Assembly: GCF_014645795.1 (NCBI RefSeq)
Contig: NZ_BMMK01000007.1
Span: 148,790 to 212,789, forward strand
Length of the DNA stretch: 64,000 nucleotides
Source: Longimycelium tulufanense
Lineage (GTDB): Bacteria > Actinomycetota > Actinomycetes > Mycobacteriales > Pseudonocardiaceae
Reading direction: 5' to 3'
Shown in pieces: positions 44,920 through 61,245 of the stretch; the stretch's first letter is position 1, and the number at the start of each line of letters is the position of its first letter. The translations under genes were made by a program, and so were the position numbers. Below the pieces are notes generated by a model. That model was not told where the DNA came from, did not search any database, and was given only the letters and a program-made list of their open reading frames with translations.

Positions 44920-46092
44920 TCACGCTCGGGGCGCCCTAATGAGAGCGTCGGGGCCCAGTTCGGTGGGGGTGCGGTATCCGGCGAGTCCGAGGGTCTGGTC
45001 GAGGTCGGCGAGGATGGATCGCAGGACGTGTCGTACCCCGGCTTCGCCGCCGAGGGCGAGCCCGTAGACGTAGGGGCGTCCCAGCAGCACCGCGCGGGCG
45101 CCCAAGGCCAACGCCTTGATGACGTCGGCTCCGGTGCGCACGCCGGAGTCGAACAACACCTCCAGCTTGTCCCCGACCGCGTCGACGATGGAGGGCAGGG
45201 CGTCCAACGACCCGATGACCCCGTCGACTTGGCGGCCGCCGTGATTGGAGACCACGATGCCGTCCATGCCGGCCTCGACGGCGCGGCGGGCGTCGTCGAC
45301 ATGCTGGATGCCCTTGAGCACGATGGGGCCGTCCCAGTGTTGACGGAGGAAGGGAAGCTCATCCCAGCCACGGCAGGTGCGGCTGATCATGGGGATCCAG
45401 CGCAGCGACGCCCCGACAGGGTCCTCCTCCGGTGACCGGTCCAACATCGTGCGGAAGACGGGGTCGGAGAAGGCGACGGCGGTGCCGATTCCGCGGATGA
45501 ACGGCAGGTAGGCCTGGTCGAGGTCGGATGGCCGCCAAGCCAGGGTCCAGGTGTCCAGGGTGACCACCAGGGTGGTGAATCCGGCGTCCCGGGCGCGGCG
45601 CAGGATGCTGACGCAGACCGCGTCGTCGTCGGGCCAGTACAGCTGAAACCAGCGTGGTCCGTCGCCGCCGGCGGCGGCCACGTCCTCGATGGAATATGAG
45701 GACGCCGTGGACATCACCATGGTGATGCCGAGGCTCGCCGCCGCGCGGGCGGCGGCGGGTTCCCCGTGGGGGTGGGCGATGGAGTTGACCCCGATCGGTG
45801 CCAGCAGGATCGGGGCCGGCATGGTCTGGCCGAGGACGGTCGTAGTGAGGTCCCGCGTGGTGGCGCCGGTCAGCATGCGGGGCACGATCCGCCAGTGGTC
45901 GAAGGCTTCCCGGTTGGCCCGCATGGTCGCGCCGGTGGAGGCGCCACCGGCGATGTAGCCGAACGGGCCGGGCTCCAGGTGGCTGCGTGCCGCGTCTTCC
46001 AGAGCCTCGAGATTACAGGTGATCTCGGGAGTGTGCCCCTGGAGTCCCTGCGCGTAGATTTCGTGCTGGTAGGCAGCGAAGGATGCTTGCAT
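44920..46092 (-). CDS. FMN-dependent alpha-hydroxy acid oxidase (lactate 2-monooxygenase-like)
   Basis: The protein is 390 aa. Family landmarks: YIAGGASTGATMRANREAF, LLAPIGVNSIAHPHGEPAAA, RWFQLYWPDDDAV, VVTLDTWTLAWRP, IVLKGIQHVDDA with the FMN lysine, and the active-site VSNHGGRQVDGVIGSLDALP with catalytic His and Arg. The split loop with WIPMISRTCRGWDEL resembles lactate 2-monooxygenase more than L-lactate cytochrome reductase. A ribosome site AAAGGA precedes it. It is 78 bases downstream of the FAD dehydrogenase gene, with a small hairpin (GGCCGCG-6-CGCGGCC) in the gap. The substrate is not determined. Confidence 0.88.
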   Translation of the reverse strand: MQASFAAYQHEIYAQGLQGHTPEITCNLEALEDAARSHLEPGPFGYIAGGASTGATMRANREAFDHWRIVPRMLTGATTRDLTTTVLGQTMPAPILLAPIGVNSIAHPHGEPAAARAAASLGITMVMSTASSYSIEDVAAAGGDGPRWFQLYWPDDDAVCVSILRRARDAGFTTLVVTLDTWTLAWRPSDLDQAYLPFIRGIGTAVAFSDPVFRTMLDRSPEEDPVGASLRWIPMISRTCRGWDELPFLRQHWDGPIVLKGIQHVDDARRAVEAGMDGIVVSNHGGRQVDGVIGSLDALPSIVDAVGDKLEVLFDSGVRTGADVIKALALGARAVLLGRPYVYGLALGGEAGVRHVLRSILADLDQTLGLAGYRTPTELGPDALIRAPRA

Positions 46093-55281: not shown

Positions 55282-56235
55282 TCACGTGCGCCGGGCCACA
55301 GCGCCGAGCGCTGCCCGTAGCTGTGGTCCCACCAGGACCGCTGCATTCGCCGCCAGCACCACCGCCACGCCGAGCAGGGCGAGAACCGTCCAGCAATATC
55401 CCTCGAAGAGGGTGGACAGCGTCAGCGACACCAGCGGGAACACCACGGTGGCGAAGGCCGCGCGATCCGGCCCGATCCGGCCCAGCAAGGTCAGGTACGC
55501 CACGAACGCCACCGCCGACCCGAACACCGCCAGATATGCCAGTCCGACCAGATATCGCACGCTGAACTCCACGGTGAACTCCTGGCCCGTCGCCAGACAT
55601 CCCACCGTCGTGAGAAGACCGCCGTAGAGCATGCTCCAGGCCGTGGCGGGCACGATCGGCAACCCGGCCTGCTGGTTCTTCGACGACGCGATGTTGCCGA
55701 ACGAGAACGACAGGGTCCCGGCCACGCCCAGGATCACCCCGAGAACAGCCGCACCAGAGGCCCCGGTGACGCCGATCTCATCGGAGAACACCAGCACCAG
55801 GCCAAGAACCCCGACCAGCGCCGCCACCACGACCGACGGCCGCACCCGTCGACCCAGGAACAGGTACCCGTTGACGATGTTGCAGCCGACCGACAACGCG
55901 AAGATGATCGACACCAGTCCGGACACCAGGTGCTCGGACGAGTAGTAGAACAGCACATAGTTGGTGCAGTACTGGAGTAACCCGACCAGGGCGAACCGCG
56001 CGTGCGCCCCCGCCGGGAACCGCAGCTGGAGCCGACGTGCCGCACACCATGCGAACAGGCAGGCCGCGGCAAGCAGGAACCGGTAGGCCACCGAGACCGC
56101 CGGTGACACCGTGCCCAGCTGGAGCTTGATCCCGATCCATGTCGAGCCCCACAACAGCACGACCAGCGTGAACAACGCGACCGTCCAGGCTGTGGCACGT
56201 CGCTCGCCCAGCCCGGACGGTACCGCCACCCCCAT
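55282..56235 (-). CDS. EamA/DMT-family exporter, last gene of the hydroxyphenylglycine operon
   Basis: The protein is 317 aa with about ten membrane segments in two EamA repeats (LFTLVVLLWGSTWIGIKLQL first; LGVAGTLSFSFGNIASSKNQ second). I chose ATG at 56235, which overlaps the stop of the tautomerase gene (TGATG) with no room for a separate promoter. This coupling to arylglycine genes suggests export of the pathway product, most simply an amino acid; RhtA-type members of this superfamily export amino acids. Confidence 0.88.
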   Translation of the reverse strand: MGVAVPSGLGERRATAWTVALFTLVVLLWGSTWIGIKLQLGTVSPAVSVAYRFLLAAACLFAWCAARRLQLRFPAGAHARFALVGLLQYCTNYVLFYYSSEHLVSGLVSIIFALSVGCNIVNGYLFLGRRVRPSVVVAALVGVLGLVLVFSDEIGVTGASGAAVLGVILGVAGTLSFSFGNIASSKNQQAGLPIVPATAWSMLYGGLLTTVGCLATGQEFTVEFSVRYLVGLAYLAVFGSAVAFVAYLTLLGRIGPDRAAFATVVFPLVSLTLSTLFEGYCWTVLALLGVAVVLAANAAVLVGPQLRAALGAVARRT

Positions 56236-56429
56236 CAGCTGTCCCTCGGCTCCGAGGAGAGTCGGCCCCCGACCGCCCAGTGCTCGCGGGGCACCTCGTC
56301 GATCACAACCCACACGCCTTCACGTTTCCCACCGCAGGTGCGCAGGAACGCTTCGGTCAGCTCAGCGACCAGCTCCCGCTTCTGTTCCTCGGTCCGGCCA
56401 GGAAACATCGACACCCTGATCAGCGGCAC
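56235..56429 (-). CDS. 4-oxalocrotonate tautomerase-family protein
   Basis: The protein is 64 aa, the normal size of a 4-OT subunit. It begins Met-Pro (PLIRVSMFPGRTEEQKRELV), so removal of Met exposes the catalytic Pro1; the C-terminal strand VWVVIDEVPREHWAVGG is also typical. The superfamily includes enzymes that tautomerise phenylpyruvate or 4-hydroxyphenylpyruvate. In this operon it could equilibrate the HmaS substrate between keto and enol forms; that is an inference. Confidence 0.88.
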   Translation of the reverse strand: MPLIRVSMFPGRTEEQKRELVAELTEAFLRTCGGKREGVWVVIDEVPREHWAVGGRLSSEPRDS

Positions 56430-56453
56430 GACCGGCTCCCCTCACACATCATT

Positions 56454-56492
56454 GTCATCGCGGTCATCGCGGTCATCGCGCTCGTCATCGCG
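56454..56492. repeat. Tandem 9-base repeat in the gap between hpgT and the tautomerase gene
   Basis: GTCATCGCG occurs three times head to tail (56454-56480) and a fourth time after a three-base CTC interruption (56484-56492). It lies immediately downstream of the hpgT stop on the other strand (reading CGCGATGAC). In one frame it would encode an Asp-Arg-rich tail (RDDERDDRDDRDD), so a slippage event could lengthen HpgT. Confidence 0.75.
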
Positions 56493-56493
56493 T

Positions 56494-57837
56494 TCACCCG
56501 TCCTGTTCGCCTTCCTGATCCACGCCGACGCACCAGCGTTGCTCGTCGACCAGGTTGGCGAGTCGGTCCAACCCGTCATCGATCTGTTCCGGCGTGAGCA
56601 CGCTGCACGACAGGCGGAGTTGGTTCTCGCCACCTGCGCCGTCGTAGAAGTGACTCATCGGTGTCCACAGCACCCCGTGTCGACGGGCGGAGTGCTCCAG
56701 CAACGTGTCATCGACTCGGAACGGCACGGTCACTACCACGAAGAAGCCACCGCTCGGGGTGTTCCACCCCAGGTCGGGTGCCGAGTGGAACCGCTTCTCC
56801 AAGCCCTCCAAAAGGTGGGTGAGGTTGCGGCGGTACACCTCGATCTCCATCCAGTTGGCGCGCAGCAGGCTTCCATGGTGCTCGAGGAGCTTCCCACCGA
56901 CCATCGCCTGGCTGATCGGTGCCGTGTTGACCGTCAACATACTCTTGATCTTGGACAGCTCGTCTGCGAACAAGCTCGTGCTGCCGTCATCGTGCGCCAC
57001 CAGCTGGTCGGCGACCGCGAAACCCACCCTGGCGCCCGGAAAACAGGTCTTGGCCAGCGAACCGAGGTAGACGACACGGCGCTCGGTGTCGAGCGCCTTG
57101 AGGGTGGGCACTCGCTCACCGCTGGCACGGAAGAATCCGTAGGGGTTGTCCTCCAGCAACAGTAGCTGTTCCTCGGCCGCAATACGGAGCAATGTCCGCC
57201 GGGCCTCGATGCTCAGTGTCACGCCACTCGGGTTGGCGAAGTCCGGGACCAAATAGCAGGCACGGGGATTCAGTCCTGCTGCGCGGGCGGCGCGGATCTG
57301 CACGACCAGGTCGTCCAGGTCCACCCCGACCTCGGAGTCCCGTACCGGACAGACCGTCATGTCGAGCAGGCGAGCAGCCCCGGTCAGCCCGACATAGGTC
57401 GGGCTGACCGCCAGGACGGTGTCCCGTTCGTCGCGCCGCAGCGCGCGGAGCACCAGGAACAACGCCTCCTGGCAGCCCACGGTGACCACGACGGACTCCG
57501 GGTCGACCTCGATCCCCTCGTCGACGTGGAGGTGACGGGCGATCAGATCGTGCACGATCCCCTTGGTGCGTCCATATTGGAACAGGGTCCGTCGCACCTG
57601 TGCGGGGTCCTGGCCGCGCTCCTTTTCCAGATAGTTGCAGAATGCGTGGAGGTACCGGTGCAACGCCTCGGTGTCGAAGGACTCCTCGTAGGGCCGGCCC
57701 GGCGCGAAGGAGATCGCGTCCGGAAACCGGTTCGCCACCTCGTTGAGGAAGTTCATCGACAGCAACGCCGGATCCTCGAGCGCGGAGTGCAGGTCGGCCC
57801 GGCGAAGCGCAGGGCGGCTCTCGACGTTCGTGGTCAC
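56494..57837 (-). CDS. hpgT: 4-hydroxyphenylglycine aminotransferase (HpgT-like)
   Basis: The protein is 447 aa from GTG 57837, which overlaps the preceding stop (GTGA) and has GACGGAG upstream; a GTG at 57855 is the alternative. A fold-type I PLP enzyme of the MocR-like aminotransferase group without the DNA-binding domain. The N-terminal block MNFLNEVANRFPDAISFAPG and RPYEESFD is the hallmark of HpgT from glycopeptide clusters. Also present: VVVTVGCQEALFLVLRAL, VPDFANPSGVTLS, LLLEDNPYGFF, and the PLP lysine in YLGSLAKTCFPGARVGF. HpgT converts 4-hydroxyphenylglyoxylate to L-4-hydroxyphenylglycine with tyrosine as donor, returning 4-hydroxyphenylpyruvate. Confidence 0.9.
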   Translation of the reverse strand: MTTNVESRPALRRADLHSALEDPALLSMNFLNEVANRFPDAISFAPGRPYEESFDTEALHRYLHAFCNYLEKERGQDPAQVRRTLFQYGRTKGIVHDLIARHLHVDEGIEVDPESVVVTVGCQEALFLVLRALRRDERDTVLAVSPTYVGLTGAARLLDMTVCPVRDSEVGVDLDDLVVQIRAARAAGLNPRACYLVPDFANPSGVTLSIEARRTLLRIAAEEQLLLLEDNPYGFFRASGERVPTLKALDTERRVVYLGSLAKTCFPGARVGFAVADQLVAHDDGSTSLFADELSKIKSMLTVNTAPISQAMVGGKLLEHHGSLLRANWMEIEVYRRNLTHLLEGLEKRFHSAPDLGWNTPSGGFFVVVTVPFRVDDTLLEHSARRHGVLWTPMSHFYDGAGGENQLRLSCSVLTPEQIDDGLDRLANLVDEQRWCVGVDQEGEQDG

Positions 57838-58748
57838 GCTGTCCGCTCCGTCCACACCACCGGGCAGAAGTTCGGGTCGGTGTAGTCGGGATCGCCATCC
57901 TCGTCACGACGCACGACATAGTCGTGGTTGTAGGTCAGCGTCGATCCGTCGGACAGCGGGAAACGCCGCCAGCGGTTGTCCCCGTCCTGCAGGTGCAGCG
58001 AGATGGCGCGCCGCGGCGCGGCTGCCCGGTTGGCACCACTGCCGTGGTAGGTCCGGCAGTGGTGGAAGCTCATGTGTCCCTTGGGAATCATCATCGGGAC
58101 CTTGCACACCTCGGTGCCGTTGTACGCGGCGTTCTCCCGCAGTAGATCCTCCAGCTCGGACTTGTCACGATCGGCGAAGTGCCGGGTCACCGTGTCGTTC
58201 GCGCCGATCTCCTGCCAGCGTTGGCTGCCATCCACCATCGTGATGGTGCCCATCTGCTCGTCGCAGTCATGGAACGGGATGAAGGCCGTTAACATGCGGT
58301 CCGACGTGCTGGTGGACCAGTAGTGCTTGTCGAAGTGCCACGGCACGATGTTGCTCTCCTCCTCGGGCCGTGGTGGTTTGTAGATGAGGGTGGACTGGAA
58401 CACACGGACCAGCTCCGCACCGGCGAGCCTCGCGGCGACGGCACCGATGAGCGGTTTGGTCAGGATGCGGCGGATCGCGTCGCTCTCGTAGTGGATGTAG
58501 TCGTTGTGGCGCTGCCGGTCTCCTTCCTCCGGGGTCCAGTACGCGATGCGCGGCGGATGGATGGGCAGCTCGCGGTCACGATGCCCCGCATAGAAGCGTT
58601 CGCTCTCGATGACGAGCGTGTTCACCTCGTCGTCGGTCAGCAGTTTCTTGGCGAGGTACCAGCCATGTTCCTGGTAGAAGAGCACGTCTTCGTTGGAGGG
58701 AAGTAACTCCACCTCGTCGGCGGAGAGGGTGAAGGACACGGTGTTCAT
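57834..58748 (-). CDS. Phytanoyl-CoA dioxygenase-family Fe(II)/2-oxoglutarate oxygenase
   Basis: The protein is 304 aa. I chose ATG at 58748 because it overlaps the hmo stop (TGATG) and GGAAGGA precedes it. The iron facial triad is visible: H-x-D in VPWHFDKHYWST (around residue 140) and the distal His in HHCRTYHGSGANRA (around 239), with the 2-oxoglutarate-binding Arg in RRAISLHLQ. The aspartate argues for a hydroxylase rather than a halogenase (which would have Ala or Gly). It is placed between hmo and hpgT, which is not the arrangement in known glycopeptide clusters, and could oxidise the arylglycine or an intermediate. The substrate is unknown. Confidence 0.85.
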   Translation of the reverse strand: MNTVSFTLSADEVELLPSNEDVLFYQEHGWYLAKKLLTDDEVNTLVIESERFYAGHRDRELPIHPPRIAYWTPEEGDRQRHNDYIHYESDAIRRILTKPLIGAVAARLAGAELVRVFQSTLIYKPPRPEEESNIVPWHFDKHYWSTSTSDRMLTAFIPFHDCDEQMGTITMVDGSQRWQEIGANDTVTRHFADRDKSELEDLLRENAAYNGTEVCKVPMMIPKGHMSFHHCRTYHGSGANRAAAPRRAISLHLQDGDNRWRRFPLSDGSTLTYNHDYVVRRDEDGDPDYTDPNFCPVVWTERTA

Positions 58749-59893
58749 CAGATTCCTTCCCATCGATCCGAACCGTCGGGCCGGGAGTCGGCGACCACGC
58801 GGAGACGCCGGGTGGTCGGGACGTCGGGGCAGCCGGCGAGGGTCATCGCGGAGCTGAGTTCCGCACTCAGCATCGACAGGGCCTCGCGGACCCCGTACTC
58901 ACCATCGAGAGCGAGCCCCCACAGCACCGGCCTGCCGAGCAGGACCCCGGATGCGCCGAGGGCAAGCGCCTTGAGCACGTCTTCTCCGCTCCGTATCCCG
59001 CTGTCGAGCAGGAGTGCACAGCGTCCGGCGACCGCGTCGCGCACCGCCGGCAACGCCTCGATGCTGGGGATCGCACCGTCGAGCTGGCGGCCACCGTGGT
59101 TGGACACCACCAGCCCCGCCACGCCCAACGTCGCGGCAAGATCGGCGTCGTCGGGATCGAGAACTCCCTTCAGCACCAAGGGAAGGCGGGTTCGTTCCCG
59201 TAGCCACGCCAGGTCGTCCCAGGTGACACCGGGATGGAAGAGAGCGCGGGTGTGGGTGGCCAGCGCCGAGCCGGTGCCGCCACGCTCGTGCGCCCCGGAT
59301 GCGTTTTGGGGTGCGAGGTTCGCCGCCGTAACCTCGGGTGGCAACGCGAAGCCGTTACGCAGGTCCCGAAACCGCCGCCCCATCTCGGACACGTCGACGG
59401 TCACCAGCAACGCCCGGCACCCGCTGTCCTCGGCCCGCCGGACCAGCTCGGTGACCAGGCCCCTGTCCCGGAGCCAGTAGAGCTGGAACCAGGTCACGCC
59501 ACCGACCGCGGCGATGTCCTCCATCCGGTAGCTGCTGAGGGTGCTCACCGTGAACGGGATGCCGGCCGCGGCGGCCGCCGCGGCCGAGGCGAGCTCCCCC
59601 TCGGGGTGGAGCAACCGTTGGTAGGCCATGGGCGCCACCGCCACCGGCAGCGACGCCTTCGTGCCGAGCAACTCGGTTCCCATGGTCACCGCGGAGACGT
59701 CGGTCATCACCCGTGGCATGACGTAGAGCCGGTCCAGTGCGGCCCGGTTCGCGGCAAGGGTGCGTTCCCGTCCGCTGCCCCCGGCCACGAAGTCCCACAC
59801 CTGGGAGGGCAGGACGTGGGCGGCGGCGACCTGCAGGTCGTCCAGGTGGAACCGGGTGACCGCGGAGTCGTCCTCGACCGGTATCCGGCTCAT
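58748..59893 (-). CDS. hmo: 4-hydroxymandelate oxidase (Hmo-like, FMN-dependent)
   Basis: The protein is 381 aa. Alpha-hydroxy acid oxidase family: WDFVAGGSGRERTLAANRAA, LPVAVAPMAYQRLLHPEGEL, WFQLYWLRDRGLVTELV, VDVSEMGRRFRDLRNGFALP, the FMN lysine in LVLKGVLDPDDA and catalytic His/Arg in VSNHGGRQLDGAIPS. The blocks AYQRLLHPEGEL and MGRRFRDLRNGFALP are shared with Hmo of vancomycin-type clusters, distinguishing it from lactate oxidases such as the paralogue at 44920. It oxidises 4-hydroxymandelate to 4-hydroxyphenylglyoxylate. The start overlaps the hmaS stop (ATGA). Confidence 0.9.
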   Translation of the reverse strand: MSRIPVEDDSAVTRFHLDDLQVAAAHVLPSQVWDFVAGGSGRERTLAANRAALDRLYVMPRVMTDVSAVTMGTELLGTKASLPVAVAPMAYQRLLHPEGELASAAAAAAAGIPFTVSTLSSYRMEDIAAVGGVTWFQLYWLRDRGLVTELVRRAEDSGCRALLVTVDVSEMGRRFRDLRNGFALPPEVTAANLAPQNASGAHERGGTGSALATHTRALFHPGVTWDDLAWLRERTRLPLVLKGVLDPDDADLAATLGVAGLVVSNHGGRQLDGAIPSIEALPAVRDAVAGRCALLLDSGIRSGEDVLKALALGASGVLLGRPVLWGLALDGEYGVREALSMLSAELSSAMTLAGCPDVPTTRRLRVVADSRPDGSDRWEGI

Positions 59894-60969
59894 CCGGCCA
59901 GCTCCGCAGGCCGCACCCGCTCGGCCTCGACCGCCTCGTAGAGCGCCCTGATGTTGCCGCTACCGAAGGTACGGGCGCCCATACGCTCGACAACCTCGTA
60001 GAACAGCGTCCGCCGAGGATGGGTGGAGCGGGTGAAGATCTGGAACAGCTGGCCGTCGTGGTCCTCGTCCACGAGGATGCTCAGCCTGCGGAGGTCGGCC
60101 GTGTCGTACCCGGCCGGCCGCAGCCGCTGGTCCAGCATGTCGTAGTAGGCGCCGGGAGTGGACAGGAACTCCACGCCGCGGTCACGCAGCAGCCCCACGG
60201 CGCGGACAATGTTGTCGGTGCCGAACGCGACGTGCTGGACGCCGGCGCCACCGTGGTCCTTGACGAAGTCGTCGATCTGGCCCGGGTCGGCGGTCGTGTC
60301 GGGCTCGATCAGGGTCAGGGTGACCCGGCCGGATTCGCTCTGCACCACCTTGGAATCCATGGCCTGGCTGCCGACGGTGATGCGCTCCGCGTAGATCATC
60401 CGGAAGCCGAGCACCTGCTCGTAGAACCGCACCGTGGGCTCGAGCTGACCGGGCTCCAGGCACACCGCGAAGTGGTCGATCCCGGTGAACAGGGCCGGGC
60501 CAACCGGTTCGTCAGCGTCCGGCATCGGGGTGCAGCCGGCGGGGACGGCCGTGCCGGTCTCCGCCGGTTGGACGAAGGTGTGCACGACGTCGCCGAACGC
60601 GGCGATCGTGGCGGTGACCCGACCGTCGGGCCCCGTGGCCGGCCCGGCGACCGGTTGCGCGCCATGGGCCACCGCGGTGGTGAACGCGGCGCCGGGATCT
60701 GGTGTCGACAGGGCGATGTCGGCGACACCGCCCCCATGTGTCTGGACGTAACTGGTTGCCGGGTGCCGGTCAGTGAGCCCCTTGGTTAACAGCAGGTCGA
60801 TACCGCCCTGCCGGAGGGCGAGCGAGTAGCCGTCCCGGCTGGTGCCTTGGAAACCGGCCCAGCCGATGGGACGGAAGCCGTACTGGCTGATCAGGGACGC
60901 GGCCGTGGTGGCCACGTTGGCGACGTGGAACTCGACGTGCCCGAGGCCGAGTTCGGTTGATAACGCCAT
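59890..60969 (-). CDS. hmaS: 4-hydroxymandelate synthase
   Basis: The protein is 359 aa with GGGAGGA eight bases before ATG. It is a two-domain vicinal-oxygen-chelate enzyme like 4-hydroxyphenylpyruvate dioxygenase (HPPD). Iron ligands: His in FTGIDHFAVCLE, His in GAGVQHVAFGTDN and Glu in FYEVVERMGARTF. The C-terminal helix reads FGSGNIRALYEAV: the Ile after GN is the HmaS-type residue (HPPD has Phe, FGxGNFKALFE), known to direct benzylic hydroxylation instead of ring attack. The strand MDSKVVQSESGRVTLTLIEP also matches HmaS. It makes 4-hydroxymandelate from 4-hydroxyphenylpyruvate and is the first gene of the operon. Confidence 0.93.
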   Translation of the reverse strand: MALSTELGLGHVEFHVANVATTAASLISQYGFRPIGWAGFQGTSRDGYSLALRQGGIDLLLTKGLTDRHPATSYVQTHGGGVADIALSTPDPGAAFTTAVAHGAQPVAGPATGPDGRVTATIAAFGDVVHTFVQPAETGTAVPAGCTPMPDADEPVGPALFTGIDHFAVCLEPGQLEPTVRFYEQVLGFRMIYAERITVGSQAMDSKVVQSESGRVTLTLIEPDTTADPGQIDDFVKDHGGAGVQHVAFGTDNIVRAVGLLRDRGVEFLSTPGAYYDMLDQRLRPAGYDTADLRRLSILVDEDHDGQLFQIFTRSTHPRRTLFYEVVERMGARTFGSGNIRALYEAVEAERVRPAELAG

Positions 60970-61061: not shown

Positions 61062-61080
61062 TGTTCGACTATGTCGAACA
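61062..61080. promoter_or_regulatory. hmaS operator candidate, copy 1
   Basis: TGTTCGAC-TAT-GTCGAACA, a perfect 8+8 inverted repeat with a three-base spacer, centred about 100 bases upstream of hmaS. Size and symmetry suit a TetR, MarR or LysR-type dimer. No regulator gene is adjacent. Confidence 0.7.
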
Positions 61081-61226: not shown

Positions 61227-61245
61227 TATTCGACAATGTCGAACA
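61227..61245. promoter_or_regulatory. hmaS operator candidate, copy 2
   Basis: TATTCGAC-AAT-GTCGAACA, the same site with one arm position changed and a different spacer, 165 bases from copy 1. It lies roughly midway between hmaS and the divergent CPBP protease gene. Confidence 0.65.

Follow-up and report, generated by a model that had tools for sequence, protein, structure and literature searches.

The 64-kb stretch of the Longimycelium tulufanense genome analyzed here (contig NZ_BMMK01000007.1, positions 148,790 to 212,789; hereafter the window, whose own coordinates are used throughout) carries, within positions 55282–60969 of the minus strand, a six-gene operon in the order hmaS-hmo-phyH-hpgT-tautomerase-eamA. 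HmaS, Hmo and HpgT are homologues of the enzymes of the 4-hydroxyphenylglycine (Hpg) route, PhyH is a predicted Fe(II)/2-oxoglutarate (2OG) oxygenase, and EamA is a predicted exporter. Judging from the sequence, we consider it about an even call that this is a self-contained operon in which Hpg would be made by HmaS, Hmo and HpgT, oxidized by PhyH either as the amino acid or as an acid precursor, and exported by EamA. A free, oxidized and exported arylglycine is a plausible product; each of the enzymatic reactions, export by EamA and a role as antimetabolite or signal are what we infer. More tentatively, with the balance somewhat against it, we propose that HmaS, PhyH, Hmo and HpgT form a pathway to an undescribed oxidized arylglycine. 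This compound would be a common building block used by four or more types of assembly line (discrete ketosynthase (KS)/acyl carrier protein (ACP)/AMP-ligase systems, condensation systems, ATP-grasp systems, and multidomain KS and adenylation-condensation proteins), and would be made alone in nine loci, one of them on a plasmid, and released in five through EamA to act in free form as an antimetabolite or signal.

The evidence that bears most directly on these proposals is the linkage of PhyH to arylglycine genes. A PhyH scan of genome contigs returned 188 relatives, the best 80 of which were kept as loci with fetched 10-kb flanks, and in 80 of the 80 fetched loci an HmaS match adjoins PhyH or lies one gene away. 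Spacing was counted in 80 loci for which both genes had been called, a set that contains the window but not L071: the two genes overlapped head-to-tail in 46, were separated by gaps of 2–500 nt in 28, and had Hmo between them in six. The flanks of these loci, window included, showed Hmo in just 27 and HpgT in 22; because of these low counts, the genomes behind 26 chosen loci were searched for HpgT, which was present (E ≤ 1e-60) in 26 of 26, although 25 had shown none in the fetched flank (L034 had). An early reading that PhyH accompanies HmaS but not Hmo or HpgT was thus dropped, since HpgT is in the genomes and, where visible, lies beyond the 10-kb flank. In two loci from genomes of the class (L143 and L144), whose genes are mostly >90% identical to those of Micromonospora loci, the arylglycine set forms one cluster with HpgT about 15–16 kb from PhyH. 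An apparent HmaS-PhyH fusion in Micromonospora lupini (L071, 8891–10909), which would have argued strongly for a common substrate, was also discarded, as reading three frames located a frameshift near the HmaS end in this assembly.

The same association was observed at the level of whole genomes, for which searches scored the best four to seven candidates each. Across 394 genomes of the class, that of L. tulufanense included, PhyH (E ≤ 1e-40) occurred in seven and HpgT (E ≤ 1e-70) in 16, with both genes in seven of seven (Fisher p = 4e-11). The family sampled next is probably Pseudonocardiaceae, since one of its genomes (G712) is 100% identical over the genes of L181 to Saccharothrix deserti L033, a species placed in Pseudonocardiaceae. 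Among 297 genomes of the family, PhyH occurred in 32, of which 27 had it at ≥66% identity, a split chosen after seeing the data. HpgT was present in 27 of these 27 genomes (within 25 kb on the same contig in 25) and in 39 of the 270 remaining ones (Fisher p = 1.6e-20); both p-values overstate independence because the species are related. The five family genomes with only a distant PhyH (38–61%) were left out of the 27-genome count, and HpgT was absent from four of them. Furthermore, HmaS stood beside PhyH in 23 of 28 family loci with short flanks, and the remaining five were opened. Close PhyH relatives (≥66%) are near-obligate partners of arylglycine genes. Since the close clade co-occurs with HmaS and HpgT while distant PhyH proteins are mostly found without HpgT, one branch of arylglycine biosynthesis appears to include PhyH as a fixed fourth enzyme.

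HmaS (59890–60969, minus strand, 359 aa) matches TIGR01263 with 343 bits, above the cut-off, and its nearest solved structure is 2r5v, the best Protein Data Bank (PDB) match (391 bits), well ahead of 1t47 (200 bits). Residues H166, H246 and E325, which we take to be the metal ligands (two His and one Glu) of the 4-hydroxyphenylpyruvate dioxygenase (HPPD) superfamily, are kept in 79–80 of 80 aligned HmaS rows. Two positions discriminate between hydroxymandelate synthase (HMS) and HPPD, namely the Asn of the HPPD motif FPxNEP and the Phe of GNF. The window HmaS has Ile at both (I221 and I340), as against Asn and Phe in a separate HPPD-type gene of the same genome (contig C23). All 80 rows carry Ile or Leu at the first position, and 79 carry Ile at the second, the remaining row having a gap there; in the HmaS proteins of L102, L103 and L208 the two residues are Val and Ile, respectively. 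A Phe-to-Ile change at the second position alters the product, and the Asn of FPxNEP is presumably equivalent to N282 of AtHPPD. The accessible text of PMC6750108 identifies 2R5V as a hydroxymandelate synthase and 1t47 as the HPPD of Streptomyces avermitilis, and gives a cost of about 160-fold for AtHPPD N282A. Conserved residues separate HMS and HPPD activities according to the accessible text of PMC3720870, in which the positions of I221 and I340 are unnamed.

By its residues, then, HmaS is of the hydroxymandelate-synthase type at two positions, which supports the Hpg-type route proposed in the first-pass annotation of this DNA. NCBIfam, like the annotation of one related operon, names the dioxygenase an HPPD, under which the operon would serve tyrosine catabolism via homogentisate. 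Given the HMS-type residues, the separate HPPD-type gene in the genome and the bit scores for 2r5v and 1t47, we regard this as highly improbable, and we know of no place for Hmo and HpgT in the homogentisate route. The nearest solved structure to Hmo (58748–59893, minus strand, 381 aa; FMN_dh, 430 bits) is the 4-hydroxymandelate oxidase 5zzp (398 bits). HpgT (56494–57837, minus strand, 447 aa; PF00155, Aminotran_1_2), a predicted arylglycine aminotransferase, groups in its tree among the HpgT proteins of arylglycine clusters and is 48–58% identical to those of PhyH-less loci. Families, structural matches and the HpgT tree thus bear out the earlier identification of three Hpg-route homologues, which are encoded together as in an Hpg cassette. 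4-Hydroxyphenylpyruvate would be converted by HmaS, then Hmo, then HpgT to L-4-hydroxyphenylglycine. A second gene resembling FMN-dependent alpha-hydroxy-acid dehydrogenases, 40% identical to Hmo at the protein level, lies about 9 kb past the end of the operon (44920–46092, minus strand).

PhyH (57834–58748, minus strand, 304 aa) belongs to PF05721, and the presence of an Fe/2OG oxygenase inside the operon was confirmed by an intact HxD...H metal triad (H138, D140 and H235) and 2OG-binding Arg (R246), kept in 49 of 49 aligned rows. In PhyH-type halogenases HxG/A replaces HxD, and D140 stands in 49 of 49 rows; because the triad is HxD...H and not HxG/A, the PhyH step would be a hydroxylation. 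The AlphaFold model (pLDDT 89) has SnoK/SnoN, MysH, the proline hydroxylase H11, GriE and EctD as fold neighbors, and comparison with them pointed to no substrate. Function cannot validly be transferred from EctD, GriE, the trans-proline hydroxylase H11 or SnoK/SnoN, because they share just 16–24% identity with PhyH and their substrates are unrelated. At residues H81, I122, H142, L199, N206 and N274 the close PhyH clade differs from each of the five outgroup rows; both groups have the same metal triad and Arg. The clade-specific residues fit a common substrate inside the clade. PhyH likely oxidizes either the amino acid in its free form or an acid precursor of it. Because no carrier protein or AMP ligase was found in the stand-alone operons described below, its substrate would be a free pathway acid. 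As a first guess, held with low confidence, the product may be a ring-hydroxylated mandelate or arylglycine.

The arrangement HmaS-Hmo-PhyH-HpgT, on one strand and with no assembly-line gene found in the flank, occurs in nine loci: the window, L015 (Wenjunlia vitaminophila), L026, L034, L040 and L088 (Streptomyces and Streptantibioticus), L102 and L103 (class genomes), and L208, on the 616-kb plasmid p1 (NZ_CP104318.1) of Streptomyces angustmyceticus. The flanks were assessed from shared gene clusters, from BLAST labels or from annotation, and six of the nine were re-checked. An EamA gene lies downstream of HpgT in five (the window, where the tautomerase intervenes, L015, L102, L103 and L208), and the W. 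vitaminophila EamA is 71% identical to that of the window. The view of a stand-alone operon put forward in the first-pass annotation was upheld to this extent, since the operon recurs with EamA in four other loci, and has to be qualified in that most relatives sit with assembly-line genes. The plasmid locus holds the complete operon with its exporter, near an ISL3 transposase; both it and L103 add a prephenate dehydrogenase and a CHMI-type protein of the tautomerase superfamily. In the one annotated record inspected for L208, the operon genes are named generically as HPPD, alpha-hydroxy acid oxidase, aminotransferase and DMT transporter. The four loci without EamA (L026, L034, L040 and L088) continue with a prephenate dehydrogenase, then a zinc alcohol dehydrogenase, PhzF-like, MFS transporter and YjgF-like genes, names with Pfam support from L034 only; a 65-aa open reading frame (ORF) intervenes in this series in L040. 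In the HpgT and HmaS trees the window operon groups with L015 and is separate from the remaining stand-alone loci; the PhyH tree leaves the grouping undecided, and L208 is outside the trees. The HpgT and HmaS trees thus do not support a single origin of the stand-alone form, and because of this split the arrangement probably arose more than once.

The earlier statement that the window holds no synthetase, MbtH or prephenate dehydrogenase gene was substantiated. Twenty queries (three prephenate dehydrogenases, three MbtH proteins, condensation domains, AMP ligases, KS, E1, ATP-grasp, DpgA and others) gave no match for nonribosomal peptide synthetase (NRPS), other assembly-line or precursor genes in the 64 kb at E ≤ 1e-3, while a repeat with the operon proteins as positive control matched the operon itself and one Hmo relative only. 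The window operon shares homologues of HmaS, Hmo and HpgT with the Hpg cassettes of glycopeptide and related NRPS clusters, but differs from them in its additional PhyH and EamA and in having no NRPS, MbtH or TyrA gene adjoining. The phenylglycine route of pristinamycin (PglA-E) likewise ends in a related aminotransferase, but runs via the E1-type PglB/C, without HmaS or Hmo. Elsewhere in the genome, condensation domains are encoded on contigs C1, C5, C7 and C8, with weak matches on C34 and C49. The four main loci contain ten adenylation motifs, nine of them full length, to which four further AMP-binding ORFs were added, two of these being unlike amino-acid adenylation domains. None of the nine full domains or the four further ORFs has an Hpg-like code, which we take to be DIFHLGLLCK; two of the nine codes are presumably Ser (DVWHFSLVDK) and one hydroxyornithine-like. 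The best match in the genome to the AMP ligase of the KS-type clusters has 29% identity and 53 bits.

Most of the loci of PhyH relatives add assembly-line genes to the arylglycine set. Clusters in Micromonospora, Kribbella, Saccharothrix, Actinokineospora and Streptomyces carry genes of this set, including a PhyH of the same clade, as the window does, and differ from it in their additional KS/AMP-ligase/ACP, ATP-grasp or condensation genes. Among the widespread KS-type clusters (L077, L063, L143, L144 and other Micromonospora, Salinispora and Kribbella loci), the arylglycine genes are accompanied by two KS genes, a Ketoacyl-synt_2 protein, two AMP ligases, a DUF3050 protein, E1 alpha/beta-like genes and a weak CP_ATPgrasp match. 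Three Streptomyces loci (L065, L068 and L074) combine the set with a prephenate dehydrogenase, ATP-grasp genes resembling those of L-amino-acid ligases, a luciferase-like monooxygenase and a flavin reductase, with Pfam support from L065, and may possibly make an arylglycine dipeptide. Eleven HpgT loci without PhyH (L132–L142) were also opened, nine of which have NRPS-type or type III polyketide synthase (PKS; DpgA-like) genes. Pfam confirmed the type III PKS (DpgA-like) of L133 and of L136, and also that L135 and L141 encode adenylation-carrier proteins, L139 a carrier-reductase protein, and L132 both an FMN_dh-aminotransferase fusion and a chorismate mutase; gene names in L134, L137, L138, L140 and L142 come from BLAST labels or reading only. 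The fused Hmo-HpgT ORFs of L132 and L137 (836 and 822 aa) stand beside HmaS, prephenate dehydrogenase and chorismate mutase, with no PhyH. A guess at an amidinotransferase in L136 found no Pfam support and was not used.

Two further explanations have to be weighed against a self-contained route to an exported arylglycine. A peptide synthetase encoded at another genomic site might receive ordinary Hpg from the operon in trans, EamA being incidental. The condensation domains on C1, C5, C7 and C8, with the weak matches on C34 and C49, leave room for such a partner, and in two other genomes (G684 and G559) arylglycine genes are encoded a long way from the PhyH cluster; even so, we consider this explanation unlikely, given that the genome check for Hpg-coded adenylation domains suggested in the first-pass annotation turned up none among those read, and that an operon without assembly-line genes recurs in eight other loci. 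A stronger candidate, although still doubtful, is that PhyH modifies either another amino acid or a later product, made alongside the arylglycine, so that its link to the route is one of cluster membership and not of arylglycine chemistry. Several of its fold neighbors hydroxylate free proline, leucine or ectoine, L173 and L174 keep PhyH while their arylglycine genes lie elsewhere, and the PhyH paralogue of L175 sits beside an ATP-grasp ligase with no arylglycine genes. Against this, the stand-alone operons offer nothing else obvious for PhyH to act on, the arylglycine clade has conserved residues of its own, and PhyH lies between Hmo and HpgT in the stand-alone loci and elsewhere mostly overlaps or directly follows HmaS.

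Several observations nevertheless weigh against the reading that we favor, in which PhyH oxidizes an arylglycine or its precursor and EamA exports the product. EamA is absent from four of the nine stand-alone loci, nor is the tautomerase conserved. The assembly is a draft of 114 contigs, one adenylation domain (L107_12566 on contig C7) is incomplete, and the weak condensation matches on C34 and C49 lie outside the code reading. L173 and L174 have PhyH with AMP-ligase, ACP and E1 genes, most of the shared genes being 74–92% identical to those of Saccharothrix-type clusters, without a local HmaS, Hmo or HpgT, and HmaS and HpgT are found elsewhere in these genomes. PhyH paralogues of about 61% identity occur in unrelated clusters (L175–L177), which indicates that the PhyH family is not bound to one substrate; the genomes concerned have just 35–36% matches to HpgT and HmaS, the HmaS relative being HPPD-like, and the neighbors include thymidylate-synthase-like and B12/radical SAM proteins in L177 (Pfam) and the ATP-grasp ligase in L175. 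The position of PhyH in the gene order also varies, as it precedes HmaS in L104, and H142 is not universal, being Asp in that locus, which is outside the 49 rows. Transporter-type genes are also present in the L175–L177 clusters. More distant PhyH relatives (42–43%) lie on plasmids of Planktothrix agardhii (L209 and L210), near asparagine synthase, aminotransferase and alkene reductase genes.

The initial description of six same-strand genes, nearly all overlapping, was accurate: four of the five junctions overlap (HmaS/Hmo by 4 nt, Hmo/PhyH by 1, PhyH/HpgT by 4 and tautomerase/EamA by 1), HpgT-tautomerase being the sole exception, with a 64-nt gap. In this gap (56440–56495), GCGATGAC is present four times on the minus strand. 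EamA (55282–56235, minus strand; EamA/DMT family, PF00892 in two stretches) has 317 aa when counted from the ATG overlapping the tautomerase stop. The 64-aa protein resembling 4-oxalocrotonate tautomerase (56235–56429, minus strand; PF01361, 67 bits) had been proposed to act on hydroxyphenylpyruvate. Whereas the gene is indeed present, this role appears weak: of Pro1, Arg11 and Arg39, which we take to be the canonical residues of 4-oxalocrotonate tautomerase in its own numbering, the protein keeps the first two and has Trp as residue 39, and no relative of this type was detected in the 80 fetched loci (tblastn, E ≤ 1e-4), including the W. vitaminophila operon. The tautomerase was likewise rejected as a universal partner, since a gene of the superfamily occurs in just three of the nine stand-alone loci, and these come from two different families.

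Upstream of the operon, the palindrome TTCGAC-N3-GTCGAA, a predicted operator, is found at 61064–61078, 95 bp from the HmaS start, with a second copy at 61229–61243, 260 bp from it. These are the only two exact sites in the 6.83-Mb genome, in which a reversed control pattern occurs once, and among 144 loci the palindrome appears only in L012, a piece of the same locus; the two copies look like a predicted, dedicated operator pair. Housekeeping-like genes flank the operon; by reading, these are of the MoxR/DUF58 type to one side and encode a cytochrome-oxidase subunit to the other, with a CPBP protease gene between this subunit gene and the operon.

Arylglycines are familiar mainly as constituents of peptide antibiotics, and no description of a PhyH-containing arylglycine operon was found in the open-license literature, subscription journals being outside the scope of this search. 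Free L-4-hydroxyphenylglycine is, as we take it, oxfenicine. Since oxfenicine is an inhibitor of carnitine palmitoyltransferase-1 according to the accessible text of PMC3724909, a secreted relative of it could be bioactive. The operon belongs to a broader arylglycine gene set that includes PhyH. This oxygenase is absent from the 11 PhyH-less HpgT loci opened, and its gene also serves as a probe with which many actinobacterial clusters can be found. If an arylglycine is indeed made and exported alone, the operon would provide a small-molecule product and an enzyme step that are both new.

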